From Methanohalophilus sp. (lineage in GTDB: Archaea > Halobacteriota > Methanosarcinia > Methanosarcinales > Methanosarcinaceae), in NCBI RefSeq assembly GCF_030156785.1, contig NZ_JASGLW010000012.1:1-52299 (forward strand): a DNA stretch of 52,299 nucleotides, given 5' to 3'. This document shows, one piece after another, positions 2,045-31,321 of the stretch. A program made the translations under genes and the position numbers. The notes under the pieces are model-generated. The model was not told where the DNA came from and searched no databases. It saw only the letters and a list, made by a program, of their open reading frames with translations. The number at the start of each line of letters is the position of its first letter. Within the stretch, counting starts at the first letter, position 1.

Positions 2045-2800
2045 ATGTTTTCTATTATTGACTCCCATTGCCACCTCGATTTCCCTAAATTCAACAAAGA
2101 CCGAGAGGAAGCAATTTCCCGGGCAAGGGAAGCGGGAGTAAAAGCAATGATTAATTCGGGAATAGATTTCAAGACAAACTTATCCAGCATCCGGCTTGCA
2201 GAACAATACAATTTTATATATCCAACTGCCGGTTTGAGTCCTTCCCTTGTATCCACACAGGATGATGAGAGGGTCGGGAAAATCCTGAAACAACTCTCAT
2301 AGCTTGGGGATAAAGTAATCGGGATAGGCGAAGCCGGGCTGGATTACTATCACCACAAAGACAAAAGCCAGCGTCAGAGACAAAAAGAAATATTCAGCAA
2401 GGTCATTGAAATTGCCGATAACCTCGGAAAGCCCCTTGTGATCCACGGGCGTGATGCGGAAGAGGAATGCTTTGAAATGACAAAGAACCTTGAAACCGTT
2501 ATTTTTCACTGCTACGGTGGATCAATTAAAACAATGGAAAAAATAACTGATGCCGGGCATTACATTTCAGTACCTACTCTTGTCTGTTTCTCTGAACACC
2601 ATCGAGATATTGCAAGGAACATCCCGCTTGACCTGATGCTTATCGAGACCGATAGTCCATACCTGTCACCAAGAAAAGGGCGTAATGAACCAGCATATCT
2701 TGTTGATTCTGTTGGAGTAATTGCCAAATTTCGCGATATTTCAGCAGAAGAAGTGGCTACCATTACGACAAAGAACACCAAGAAAGCATTCAAACTATGA
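2045..2800 (+). CDS. TatD-family metal-dependent hydrolase with in-frame UAG (probable pyrrolysine)
   Basis: The TatD family comprises metal-dependent DNases and hydrolases with an amidohydrolase-like barrel. The N-terminal half begins MFSIIDSHCHLDFPKF, with the metal-binding HxH at residues 8-10. It stops at TAG (2300-2302, codon 86). The same frame then continues uninterrupted to TGA at 2798-2800 with the expected rest of the family: VIGIGEAGLDYY, PLVIHGRD, VIFHCYGG and LIETDSPYLSP. Together the halves make 251 residues, the normal family length, with nothing lost at the junction. In Methanosarcinaceae UAG can be read as pyrrolysine, so I annotate one reading frame with Pyl86; a recent nonsense mutation is the alternative. 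The gene begins 8 nt after leuA and is followed closely by the hydrolase gene at 2812. Confidence 0.75.
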
Positions 2801-7834: not shown

Positions 7835-9667
7835 ATGAGCAGGTTTTTTGAAGTGCACCAGAGAGACGGAGCCGGAAGAATAGGTACTCTGATGCTTAAA
7901 GATCGCATTATAACACCCACGGTTCTTGATGTACGCCAATTTGGAGATCTGGAAAACAGCTCCATAATCTATCCTGGGAATCTCTGGGGAATGTACAGAC
8001 TGAAAGATACCACTGCCCTGATGGAAGAGATTAGAGAAAAAGCAGGCAAAGACGTATTGATCATATACCCATCAAGAAACTATCCTCCCCAAATATCCGA
8101 AAAATGCGATCTTTCAAAACCAGCCAATGAGAAAATCGAAGGACCTCTGGGCATAGCTTTCAGCGAAGACGACTCTAAATTCCCAAAAGACCTCTATATA
8201 CTGGATGGTGCCGGAACTTTTGATAATAAATCCCGGAAATTGTTTGAGAGAATAGTTGAGATCAGGAAACAAATCCCACCGGATTCTGTTCTTTACGCTC
8301 CGAATATTGGAACCCCGGAAAATATTTCAATGCTCATATTCCTTGGGATTGACGCAGTAGACAACACGAAAGCACTGGTAGCGGCAGGGAGTAATATATA
8401 TTTCACATCCGCAGGGGCATTCCATCTGGACAGTCTCACGGAACTCCCATGTGCTTGTCCTGCATGCAAGGATCACAGCCCTGCAAGCCTGTTGGAACTT
8501 AGAGCCGAAGAGAGAAAAGCACTGCTGGAAATCCACAATAATGCAATTCTTGAATCAGAAATCTCCTTATGTAGGGAAATGATCAGGAAAGGAATCCTCA
8601 GAGAATATGTTGAGGGAAAATGTCGTATCCAGCCATGGCTTACTGCTTTACTCAGACACGCGGACTCCGAATATTATTACATTGAATCCAGAACTCCGAT
8701 ATCCCGAAGAGCAACACTTCTTGCCACGACTTCTGAAAGCCTGACACGCTGTGAAGTGGTGCGTTTTGCAAAACGTATTCAGCAGCGATACATACCTCCT
8801 GAGAAAGATATTCTCCTTTTGCTACCCTGCTCTGCAAAAAAGCCTTATTCAACATCCCTTTCTCATTCCAAATTCATTCGCGCAATGGGAAAGAATCGCA
8901 AGTATGTGCAGGAAATGATACTCACATCACCAATGGGAATTGTACCGCGTGAACTTGAGATTGTATACCCAGCCGCACATTATGATACTACTGTGACCGG
9001 ATACTGGGATGCTGAGGAACGTAAGTGGGTGGAAAGTTGTCTGGAGAATTTCCTGGAGAATCATAATTACAAGCACATAATTGCACATGTTGATGGTGAT
9101 TACAGGGAAATCTGCGAAGATGTTGCCAGAAAAACCGGAATTGAATTTGTTTACACTGCAGAAGATAGTTGTACAGATGCTACTTCACTTAAGAAGCTGG
9201 AAAACACGCTTAATGAGATTGAAACTGAAGGTTTAAGAAAAGGAGACTGGCGCAGGGATACATTAAGAGCAATTGCAGACTACCAATTTGGCTCAGGTGC
9301 CGGGAAACTGCTCGTACAGGAAAGTGATAAAATTAAAGCACCATACCCGAAACACCAGGTTTTTGCGGGCAAGATGCAAGTTACAACCCTTGTACCACAA
9401 TACGGGTCGCTTGCACTGGGTCTTGAAGGTGCAAAACGAATAATTGGAATGAAACGTTATATCGTACATATTGATGACTTTGTTCCTAAAGGCTCAATCC
9501 TTGCACCCGGTATTACTGATGCCGACCCCGACATCCGGCCACTGGACGAAGTTATAGTCGTCGGGAAAAAAGCAATTGGTGTCGGGCGCGCTTTCATGGG
9601 CGGGAAAGAGATGAAAGAATCCGTTCGCGGAGTTGCGGTGGACTTAAGACACGTCAAAAAACTGTGA
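7835..9667 (+). CDS. arcS: Archaeosine synthase ArcS (TgtA2)
   Basis: ArcS converts preQ0 at position 15 of archaeal tRNA toward archaeosine. The 610-residue protein has a TGT-like N-terminal domain including the zinc motif CACPAC near residue 207. It then shows the ArcS-defining PC-x3-KPY-x2-S-x2-H motif (PCSAKKPYSTSLSH) near residue 331, and a PUA domain at the C-terminus (about 530-610). That motif separates it from the true transglycosylase TgtA, which should be elsewhere in the genome. A TATA-like CTATATAG lies about 25 nt before the ATG, suggesting a short or absent leader. The GNAT gene begins 25 nt after the stop, so the two may form an operon. Confidence 0.88.
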   Translation: MSRFFEVHQRDGAGRIGTLMLKDRIITPTVLDVRQFGDLENSSIIYPGNLWGMYRLKDTTALMEEIREKAGKDVLIIYPSRNYPPQISEKCDLSKPANEKIEGPLGIAFSEDDSKFPKDLYILDGAGTFDNKSRKLFERIVEIRKQIPPDSVLYAPNIGTPENISMLIFLGIDAVDNTKALVAAGSNIYFTSAGAFHLDSLTELPCACPACKDHSPASLLELRAEERKALLEIHNNAILESEISLCREMIRKGILREYVEGKCRIQPWLTALLRHADSEYYYIESRTPISRRATLLATTSESLTRCEVVRFAKRIQQRYIPPEKDILLLLPCSAKKPYSTSLSHSKFIRAMGKNRKYVQEMILTSPMGIVPRELEIVYPAAHYDTTVTGYWDAEERKWVESCLENFLENHNYKHIIAHVDGDYREICEDVARKTGIEFVYTAEDSCTDATSLKKLENTLNEIETEGLRKGDWRRDTLRAIADYQFGSGAGKLLVQESDKIKAPYPKHQVFAGKMQVTTLVPQYGSLALGLEGAKRIIGMKRYIVHIDDFVPKGSILAPGITDADPDIRPLDEVIVVGKKAIGVGRAFMGGKEMKESVRGVAVDLRHVKKL

Positions 9668-9692
9668 ATATTAACCCGATTGGAGGATTCCA

Positions 9693-10175
9693 GTGCAAAT
9701 CCGGAATTTTATGGGATCTGATTTTGAGCAAATCATCCAGATTGAAATGGAAGCATTCACCGAGCATAATCCCTACATCTATATGAATTTTTACGAGCTG
9801 AATCCCGAAGGTTTTTTTGTAGCTGAAGAAAGTGGAACCATATACGGATTTGTAATGGGATATCGTAGTGATGAACTCGAAGGACGTATATTTTCCCTTG
9901 CTGTTCGCAGGGATCAGCGCGGAAAGGGAATCGGATCGCGTCTTTTACAAAGGATATTACAGGAATTCCAGCATCAGAATTTGCAATACGCATAGCTGGA
10001 AGTCAGAGAAAGCAACCTTGAAGCAATCGGGCTTTACAAAAAAATGGGATTTTTAGAATGCCGGTACGAAGTTGGATATTATTCTGATGGAGAAGATGCA
10101 GTCGTAATGAAAAAACGCCTGTTACCTACACATCTCCAAAAACCTGATGCCAGAATCATTGGTAATTTTTACTGA
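9693..10175 (+). CDS. GNAT N-acetyltransferase with in-frame UAG (probable pyrrolysine)
   Basis: Starting from GTG at 9693, with GGAGG six bases upstream, the frame encodes a RimI-like acetyltransferase. The acetyl-CoA-binding signature RRDQRGKGIGSRLL is at about residues 72-85. TAG at 9993-9995 (codon 101) interrupts it, and the same frame continues to TGA at 10173-10175 with the canonical GNAT ending LEVRESNLEAIGLYKKMGF. The total is 160 residues, a full-length GNAT domain. The UAG sits immediately before LEVRESN, a position that varies in the family, so a Pyl residue there would be tolerated. I read it as one gene with Pyl101; a nonsense mutation is the alternative. The target substrate is unknown. 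The gene ends flush against the convergent UPF0058 gene. Confidence 0.77.
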
Positions 10176-10451
10176 TCAGCTACATTTTTTGCCTGATTTA
10201 TTTGCAAGCTCCTGCATTCTCACAGAAGTACGCCATGAAGAAGATAACTCATCCTCTGCAATAATAGATGCAAGATGATTCCCGAGAACAAAAATCGCAT
10301 GTTTGTGTTCCGCTTTGCTTCGGTGAATATGAATTGGGCTAATGGCAAGTGAATTGTACTCTTCGAAGTCATGTTCTATACCCTGACTTTCGAGATACTT
10401 CTTAATCTGCGCCATTAAAGTATGCAGCTGTATCAGTTCGTCTTTGTGCAT
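10176..10451 (-). CDS. UPF0058 family protein
   Basis: A 91-residue, largely helical protein starting MHKDELIQLHTLMAQIKKYLE. It has clustered histidines (SPIHIHRSKAEHKHAIF) that could bind a metal. This matches the small UPF0058 family of euryarchaea, whose role is not known. I chose the ATG at 10451, since the frame extends upstream without family-like sequence. Two direct copies of TCGAATTAA lie upstream at 10494-10502 and 10511-10519. Confidence 0.75.
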   Translation of the reverse strand: MHKDELIQLHTLMAQIKKYLESQGIEHDFEEYNSLAISPIHIHRSKAEHKHAIFVLGNHLASIIAEDELSSSWRTSVRMQELANKSGKKCS

Positions 10452-10870
10452 GGTAATACATCCATACCATATCCCTACATTACTCGAATTAATACCGAGG
10501 ATGTGGCAAATCGAATTAAAAAACAAAACGATTATAGCCGAAGACTTAATACTGAATATCAAATGCCTAATACCAAATATACTTTTTGCTATTTATGACT
10601 TTTCAATAATTAGATATTATTTCGTACAATAATCAATAGTCGGAGTCACTGACAATTAAAACAAACCTATCGATTTTACAAAAAAACATTGTGGAAAATT
10701 AGCCAAATTGTATTAGCAAAATGTCATATTTTTAACATCAAAGTTTTAAGTTATAATTCCAGAGAATCGCCCCCCCTAAAGCACCACTATTGCAACGTAG
10801 CAGAAGAGGAGGTTTAACTCGATCTGAAAGCAGACGCAACAGGAATGCAAAGATAAATTAGAGCAGAGGA
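10452..10870. other. AT-rich intergenic region
   Basis: No gene is supported. It holds the promoter region of the UPF0058 gene, repeated TAATAC-AAT motifs near 10546-10580, a run of cytosines near 10770, and a strong GAGGAGG site near 10807 with no ATG, GTG or TTG at a usable distance (only CTG, followed by a stop after ten codons). Confidence 0.4.
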
Positions 10871-10899
10871 TCCAGTGTAAAGTCGTTCAGTTCACTGGA
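10871..10899 (-). terminator. Stem-loop at the end of the small membrane ORF
   Basis: TCCAGTG (10871-10877) pairs exactly with CACTGGA (10893-10899) across a 15-nt loop. It overlaps the stop codon of the 47-residue ORF on the minus strand. There is no clear U-tract, so it may be a terminator or an RNA-stability element. Confidence 0.35.
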
Positions 10900-11035
10900 A
10901 ATCCATATTGATATCGCAAAAGGAGTATTGCTTGGTCCTTGATTTTATGAGTTTAAGTAGCAGAAAGCCAATCAGGCATAGGATCCGCAATAAAATCGCC
11001 GGAAGCAGAATAAAAATAAGCAATAAAGGAAGCAT
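10892..11035 (-). CDS. Predicted 47-residue single-pass membrane peptide
   Basis: The minus strand carries a near-perfect ribosome binding site, GAGGTGAT, three bases before an ATG at 11035. A TATA-like AAATATTTA lies about 40 nt upstream. The ORF starts MLPLLLIFILLPAILLRILC and continues LIGFLLLKLIK before a polar tail ending KSRTKQYSFCDINMDFQ. That is one or one and a half hydrophobic helices with a positively charged C-terminal flank. I do not recognise a family. The initiation signals are stronger than those of several recognised genes here, which is why I call it despite its length. It is transcribed divergently from leuD. Confidence 0.55.
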   Translation of the reverse strand: MLPLLLIFILLPAILLRILCLIGFLLLKLIKSRTKQYSFCDINMDFQ

Positions 11036-11253
11036 TACATCACCTCTATGTACAATTTTCCGCCTCTTTTTATTTCTAAATATTTTTGTTGAAAATCACT
11101 TCGAACACACCTGAACAATCATAACAAGCACACAGAAAGAATTACATACCCCCTAACCTTCCATTCAACTTATGTAATATTAGAATATCTTATTGATCCA
11201 AACAATAGTAGCAACTACAATTTATAATTTATATGAATAATTTCGGTGATAAT

Positions 11254-30651: not shown

Positions 30652-30664
30652 TTTCAGCTTATTC

Positions 30665-31321
30665 CTATCTTTGAAGAGCTGCTTCCATTTCTTTTTTGTG
30701 GATTTCCGCAGACTTGTGGATACCGCCTTCCTGACCCCGTACAGCCCGACAGGGATATTGCTGAATGAGCAAACCTGCCCTTGCTGGGGCATCTTTAACA
30801 GGGGTCCCAATTATGTTGCTTGCCATGTACCAAGTACTTCCACAAGGGGCTCCCCTAGTTACCCTAACATCTGAAATTTTCCCGTCTGATACCGAGACTT
30901 CAAATTGTGGTATCCCGAATCTAGAGGTAAATGCAAGATTGTACGGGTTTCCCCCTATGGTACAACAGATTTCATCAACTTCTACATGGATTCCACACTC
31001 AGATGCAATTTGTTTCAATTCCAAAATAGGGGCCTTCTGTGCACCACCTGGAACTATCACGGATTTCACACCATGTTTTGCAGCCTCGCGTACTATTTCA
31101 GGAGTGAGATCAGGATGAAGCGAATATGTAATTAGAATATCAGTATTGAATACTTCAGGATTAATATGTAAGGAAGAAAAATATTCTTCTGATTTGTCTA
31201 TGAATTCCGGTAAGTTTGCAGGGATTTCTGCTACAACCACTTCCATAAAAGAATTCCGTCGGATAGTCTCAACGAGTCTTGTGCCGTATTTCCCCCTTAT
31301 TATAACGCCAATATTTGCCAT
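30665..31321 (-). CDS. DUF166 family protein
   Basis: A 218-residue protein of the archaeal DUF166 type. It starts MANIGVIIRGKYGTRLVETI. A central VIVPGGAQKAPILELKQIASECGI leads to conserved cysteines in VDEICCTIGG, GAPCGSTW and YPCRAVRG, which could bind a cluster or metal. The function is unknown. It ends in TAG, the only such stop among about fifty genes here, and that TAG is followed one codon later by TAA. It is convergent with the marker 14 gene. Confidence 0.7.
   Translation of the reverse strand: MANIGVIIRGKYGTRLVETIRRNSFMEVVVAEIPANLPEFIDKSEEYFSSLHINPEVFNTDILITYSLHPDLTPEIVREAAKHGVKSVIVPGGAQKAPILELKQIASECGIHVEVDEICCTIGGNPYNLAFTSRFGIPQFEVSVSDGKISDVRVTRGAPCGSTWYMASNIIGTPVKDAPARAGLLIQQYPCRAVRGQEGGIHKSAEIHKKEMEAALQR

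Follow-up and report, generated by a model that had tools for sequence, protein, structure and literature searches.

The window analyzed here (52,299 nucleotides) is contig C18 of a 1.55-Mb draft Methanohalophilus genome, which has 19 contigs, is 94.55% complete, and has a gene content that points to a methylotrophic methanogen. On its forward strand, positions 9693..10175 hold a rimI/ard1-type GNAT N-terminal acetyltransferase gene of 160 codons that starts with GTG at 9693, ends with TGA at 10173-10175, and contains one in-frame TAG, here counted as a residue. This TAG (9993..9995, forward strand) is codon 101 and is the proposed pyrrolysine (Pyl) codon. It is directly followed by LEVRESNLEAIGLYKKMGF, as described in the initial annotation together with a normal total length, and the 160-residue frame passes the RimI profile. 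A Shine-Dalgarno-like GGAGG (9682..9686, forward strand) lies 6 bases 5' of the GTG and is likewise found ahead of the GTG in G005, the nearest relative (locus L007). The upstream neighbor is the gene for archaeosine synthase subunit alpha (ArcS; 7835..9667, forward strand; NF040592, 746.5 bits against a cut-off of 440), and the downstream neighbor is a convergent UPF0058 family gene (10176..10562, minus strand; PF01893).

When read through, the rimI product matches the NCBIfam RimI family TIGR01575 over residues 10-139 (96.8 bits, cut-off 86.4), and a PF00583 match covers residues 12-120, across the TAG. The best relative of solved structure, judged by sequence, is archaeal Ard1 4pv6 (E = 7e-20); 4r3k is also an archaeal Ard1. 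In agreement with a GNAT fold, which is marked by motif A and an N..A..LY...GF segment, residues R76, G79, N108, A111, Y115, and G119 are invariant across eight aligned sequences. A model predicted from an eight-sequence alignment has a mean pLDDT of 86.6, shows alternating strands and helices, and places residue 101 within strand 99-105. Based on this predicted model, a 100-residue product would keep just the beginning of strand 99-105 and would end before helix 109-117 and strands 121-126 and 136-142. Judged from these sequence matches, positions 9693-10175 are predicted to encode, if read through, an intact RimI/Ard1-type N-terminal acetyltransferase.

Orthologs of rimI were found in 58 of the 60 genomes searched, this genome included, and the 30 best-matching loci, all within the family, were aligned for comparison of the codon-101 column. 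The gene neighborhood is shared widely, with UPF0058 downstream in all 30 loci and arcS upstream in 25; in four of the remaining five, no arcS was matched within the 1.5 kb inspected, and in the fifth the upstream sequence is just 330 bases long. The codon-101 column is variable: it has Arg in 13 loci, Ser in eight, Thr in four, Lys in three, Gly in one, and TAG in this genome, and TAG is absent from it in the other 29. In G005, in which rimI is 84% identical, the codon is AAA (Lys). Thus, these 30 loci do not show the conservation of an amber codon at one site across species that is seen in methyltransferases with functional Pyl. Strain-specific presence of the TAG had been named in the initial annotation as an outcome that would refute its proposal. 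This outcome applies in part, at the species level (0/29 other loci), but it does not refute decoding, because a species-limited TAG fits neutral drift as well as recent mutation.

The best rimI matches of the 37 family genomes contain two TAG, zero TAA, and zero TGA stops. One of these genomes, the PylS-positive G019, has its TAG at a different rimI residue (residue 81 of its translated match in L024). This TAG sits just after the GIG of the acetyl-CoA motif. Several order-level rimI rows carry TAA or TGA, and G058, in which no PylS reaches the cut-off, shows one TAG in its rimI search row.

A second ordinary gene interrupted by TAG in the window encodes a TatD-family nuclease (2045..2800, forward strand), with the family match read through and the in-frame TAG at 2300..2302 (forward strand), where G005 has GAG (Glu). 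At an E-value threshold of 1e-20, a tatD homolog was matched in 24 of 40 genomes, and the TAG is found in this genome's copy only; in G004, the gene is split over two frames. The presence of a second such gene within 8 kb, as noted in the initial annotation, was thus confirmed. The further argument that this closeness makes random nonsense mutations less likely is weak, and we rejected it as evidence: when six TAG genes were placed randomly in the sampled contigs, two of them lay within 7.7 kb in 42% of the trials.

For a broader view, we sampled 432 kb of this genome (contigs C9, C3, and C18; about 28% of it) and ran translated alignments, in both directions, between it and 1.59 Mb of G005. 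Simple rules underlie the gene models, and the judgment on several dropped rows was made by eye. In the 263 pairs that aligned (222 of them reaching 100 aa), the otherwise intact genes of this genome with a single stop comprised four with TAG and none with TAA or TGA, a count that depends on judging 11 other stops as lying outside intact genes. These four are tatD (GAG in G005), a SAM-dependent methyltransferase (AAG), a ModE-type regulator (GAG), and rimI (AAA). The chance that all four stops would be TAG under this genome's codon usage is 0.010-0.020, and this bias, taken alone, is suggestive rather than strong.

Counting only stops that lie 15 or more residues inside the alignment ends, the alignments of this genome (G000) listed 15, and the 11 that were dropped comprise two TAG, six TAA, and three TGA. 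Four of them were judged by eye, from a break in identity followed by a Met, to be upstream of the likely start (C18:40947 TGA, C9:61312 TAG, C9:225710 TAA, and C9:67608 TGA), and two are antisense to other genes (C9:154149 TAA and 154023 TGA). Three lie in decayed remnants of genes that are intact in G005 (C9:42508 and 42499 TAA, and C18:10860 TAA), and the last two are in 56-residue matches of short ORFs (C9:83686 TAG and 24454 TAA). The reverse comparison (262 pairs) yielded 11 stops in the G005 alignments (one TAG, four TAA, and six TGA). None was placed in an intact G005 gene, a judgment made mostly by eye: three stops precede starts, three are antisense to known genes (one of these checked), and five are in query ORFs of <85 residues.

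Two decayed remnants illustrate a different pattern. One, at C9:42422-42761, derives from a gene intact in G005 and has TAA and frame breaks. The other, at 10779-11062 of the window on the minus strand, also has TAA and frame breaks and corresponds to an intact 200-residue ORF in G005; it is near rimI, yet its break is of a different kind. This genome thus contains decaying genes, but they look different from the TAG-interrupted ones. The dN/dS ratios 3' of the TAG in the four interrupted genes are 0.080, 0.083, 0.045, and 0.090 (rimI being 0.090, with 0.055 before the TAG), compared with a background median of 0.069 and a 90th percentile of 0.138 over 203 pairs; these values span the whole divergence from G005 and cannot date the rimI TAG.

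A codon-bias scan served only to choose candidates, which were then tested by family. It was rejected as a test of TAG enrichment, as same-frame neighboring genes also score for TAA and TGA. Sites with both flanks >4 bits numbered three TAG, eight TAA, and eight TGA in this genome and six, 23, and 22, respectively, in a part of G005, with no enrichment of TAG in either, a result that weighs against the Pyl reading; rimI was outside the 25 best TAG sites. Also found on C9 were a methanol corrinoid protein gene (mtaC) with an in-frame TAG (L064:5475-6275; NF040655, 436.6 bits, cut-off 420) and, 6.4 kb away, a hydantoinase-like gene (PF05378) with an in-frame TAG (L064:12066-14039). The TAG of the latter (C9:212384) falls in a gap of a 51% match in G005, which is under the 55% filter of the pair comparison. 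With these two included, six ordinary genes with an internal TAG are found in the sample.

The genome encodes a tRNA-Pyl (pylT) with anticodon CUA, and PylS (673 bits), PylB, PylC, and PylD are all above the NCBIfam cut-offs in a single cluster; the pyrrolysine cassette (pylT-CUA, pylS, pylB, pylC, and pylD) is thus complete. As a positive control, mtmB with its in-frame TAG is present. Across the 60 genomes, PylS is over the cut-off in 33, namely, 33 of the 37 in the family and none of the 23 outside. The NIKS, YxCxxxF, and GGQ motifs of aRF1 are intact; no alteration of the release factor was seen in these known motifs, an inspection that could miss a subtler change. No PYLIS-like RNA structure beyond that of shuffled sequences was found 3' of the rimI TAG (z = 0.50). 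Reviews state that no RNA element is needed for Pyl decoding, and replacement of the mtmB element is described as having lowered the full-length product. For an amber codon introduced into a reporter in M. acetivorans, 20-30% read-through is given in PMC2933860.

TAG is nearly absent as a terminator in this genome. Only two of 220 orthologous pairs, which include at least one antisense pair, have a gene ending in TAG here. One is pylB (L229:1811-2863), which ends in TAG both here and in G005 and whose frame has its next stop 39 codons on; pylC starts at 2865, and a read-through extension of pylB would overlap it. The pylB genes of M. mazei, M. acetivorans, and M. burtonii are likewise described as ending in TAG (PMC2933860). 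The other is a 218-residue gene in the window (30659-31321, minus strand; TAG at 30665-30667), which has a back-up TAA stop at 30659-30661 after one further codon and a G005 relative that ends in TAA. Furthermore, a pair of 70-residue ORFs is TAG-ended in both genomes. For ORFs of at least 200 aa, TAG closes three of 256 in this genome, and one of these three is the first part of mtmB, which is followed by a 256-codon downstream part. The corresponding counts are 19/1021 in G005, some being internal TAGs, 2/64 in G007, 3/54 in G009, and 2/42 in G017. In G039, the sole sampled genome that has no PylS over the cut-off, TAG closes 10 of 52.

Two genes of G005 extend these observations to single-match genes, based on a comparison of cfbD and ftr in eight genomes of the genus (E = 1e-30 or better). 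The only cfbD match in G005 (L118:18447-19553, minus strand; TIGR03282, 555.7 bits, cut-off 268.4) has a TAG at residue 229, a position occupied by Ser (one) or Glu (six) in the remaining seven genomes of the genus. Its only ftr match (L078:12058-12948) has a TAG at residue 38, and the codon there is CAG in all seven others. The counterparts of these two genes are on C19 and C6, outside the sample, and their TAGs are therefore absent from the reverse count. CfbD is needed for coenzyme F430. The TAG within the sole detected cfbD of G005 is the strongest single hint of UAG read-through in the genus, and TAGs in the only detected cfbD and ftr suggest that Pyl could be essential for growth whatever the substrate. 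Further frames of G005 that were read through encode a Dam-family methylase, a NosD-like beta-helix protein, and a histidine kinase; the frame of the PAS histidine kinase (L120:355-3087, minus strand) has three in-frame TAGs. No NCBIfam match was found for an integrase-like frame of G005.

The suggestion in the initial annotation that Pyl enters ordinary proteins gains support at the genome level from the full pyl cassette, the TAG-only interruption, the selection 3' of the TAG that resembles that of other genes, the near-absence of terminal TAG, and the TAGs in the single-match cfbD and ftr of G005. We consider it very probable that the decoding of amber codons by tRNA-Pyl lets them drift neutrally into ordinary genes, and that the rimI acetyltransferase works, its TAG being a tolerated Pyl codon. 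Under this scenario, a point mutation would have turned rimI codon 101 into TAG. PylBCD would make the pyrrolysine, PylS would load it onto tRNA-Pyl(CUA), and this tRNA would read the TAG. The Pyl-tRNA would compete with a normal release factor at UAG, and a special RNA element would be dispensable. Pyl at residue 101 would have no special chemistry and would be an effectively neutral swap at a variable position, and the TAG may be tolerated owing to sufficient amber suppression and to the rarity of amber stops in the lineage. We infer that the residue inserted is Pyl, that amber decoding is efficient enough at rimI, and that full-length RimI, a predicted N-terminal acetyltransferase, is the functional product.

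A recent nonsense mutation, which would make rimI a young pseudogene or leave a useless 100-residue product with decay still pending, is unlikely in our assessment. It would agree with a TAG in only one of 30 aligned loci, with the normal release factor motifs, and with the decayed remnants present in this genome, and selection measured across the whole divergence cannot date the TAG. Against this, the otherwise intact interrupted genes in the sample have TAG only, whereas the remnants have TAA and frame breaks; the start site and neighbors of rimI are kept; the gene is found in 58 of 60 genomes; and a UAG decoding system is encoded. A sequencing or assembly error at 9993-9995 is very improbable: the draft state of the genome (19 contigs, 94.55% complete) leaves room for errors, and the two-frame split of tatD in G004 could be one, but errors would also yield TAA, TGA, and frameshifts, whereas the intact interrupted genes carry TAG, including cfbD and ftr of G005. 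The least probable alternative is a functional amber switch, with UAG retained to couple acetyltransferase output to Pyl supply and thus to methylamine availability. The meaning of UAG is described as substrate-dependent in Acetohalobium arabaticum (PMC8211752), but even the closest relative has AAA in place of the rimI TAG, and the column is variable.

Full reassignment, in which UAG would always be Pyl in the lineage and the code would have two stops, is compatible with neutral drift into decoded amber codons, and we view it as a rather doubtful extension thereof. TAG ends only two of 220 orthologous genes, one of these with a TAA one codon on, and six ordinary genes in the sample have an internal TAG. 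These counts favor it, but pylB has a TAG end in both this genome and G005, the following stop being 39 codons away; the 70-residue ORF pair is TAG-ended in both genomes; and the known aRF1 motifs are normal and kept, so that UAG may still act as a stop. We tentatively propose, at somewhat under even odds, that amber is in effect a sense codon in the genus, and that rimI, tatD, and the cfbD and ftr of G005 would need Pyl, such that the cassette would be required on any substrate and not only on methylamines. Essential Pyl in the genus is a possible wider point of this work, and the TAGs in cfbD and ftr of G005 offer a clean test case for a 22nd amino acid that is essential to all methanogen growth; the idea was raised earlier for 'Ca. 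Methanomethylophilus alvus' (PMC4153887). For rimI itself, we have a clear case of amber drift into ordinary genes, given a tRNA-Pyl and a TAG that seldom serves as a stop, for which the genome sample brings TAA and TGA as internal controls. Standard gene calling would cut these TAG-bearing proteins short.

This kind of case is already known in such archaea, and rimI is a fresh example. In Methanosarcina acetivorans, the tRNA-His guanylyltransferase Thg1 is reported to carry a Pyl that is not essential for activity (PMC2933860, describing Heinemann et al. 2009). Both rimI and Thg1 are ordinary non-methyltransferase genes with an in-frame amber in one species only, and the rimI genome likewise has a full Pyl cassette, homologs that lack the amber, and a site that tolerates other residues. 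The two differ in protein and organism, and Pyl was physically observed in Thg1, whereas for rimI it is inferred. In 'Ca. M. alvus', 16 Pyl proteins beyond the methyltransferases were predicted (Borrel et al. 2014, PMC4153887), among them a putative acetyltransferase of 162 residues. The same study gives terminal TAG as 1.6% in 'Ca. M. alvus' and about 4-5% in Methanosarcina, and argues for constitutive, possibly essential Pyl in the former (PMC4153887). This resembles the present genome in that many ordinary genes have TAG, but 'Ca. M. alvus' belongs to another order, the Methanomassiliicoccales.

The methyltransferases MtmB, MtbB, and MttB have a conserved Pyl, described as being in the active site, and Pyl was seen by mass spectrometry, with a reported residue mass of 237.3 Da, in the MttB of Methanohalophilus portucalensis (PMC4928046). 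These proteins and rimI would share the same decoding machinery, and mtmB has a TAG in this genome; the rimI site differs in being variable, with the TAG not conserved. Archaea with a 'Pyl code', in which all TAG is pyrrolysine, have reportedly been described by Kivenson et al. in Science in 2025. As in those archaea, TAG here is mostly sense and rarely stop; with a pylB that ends in TAG and normal aRF1 motifs, full reassignment is rather doubtful for the present genome.
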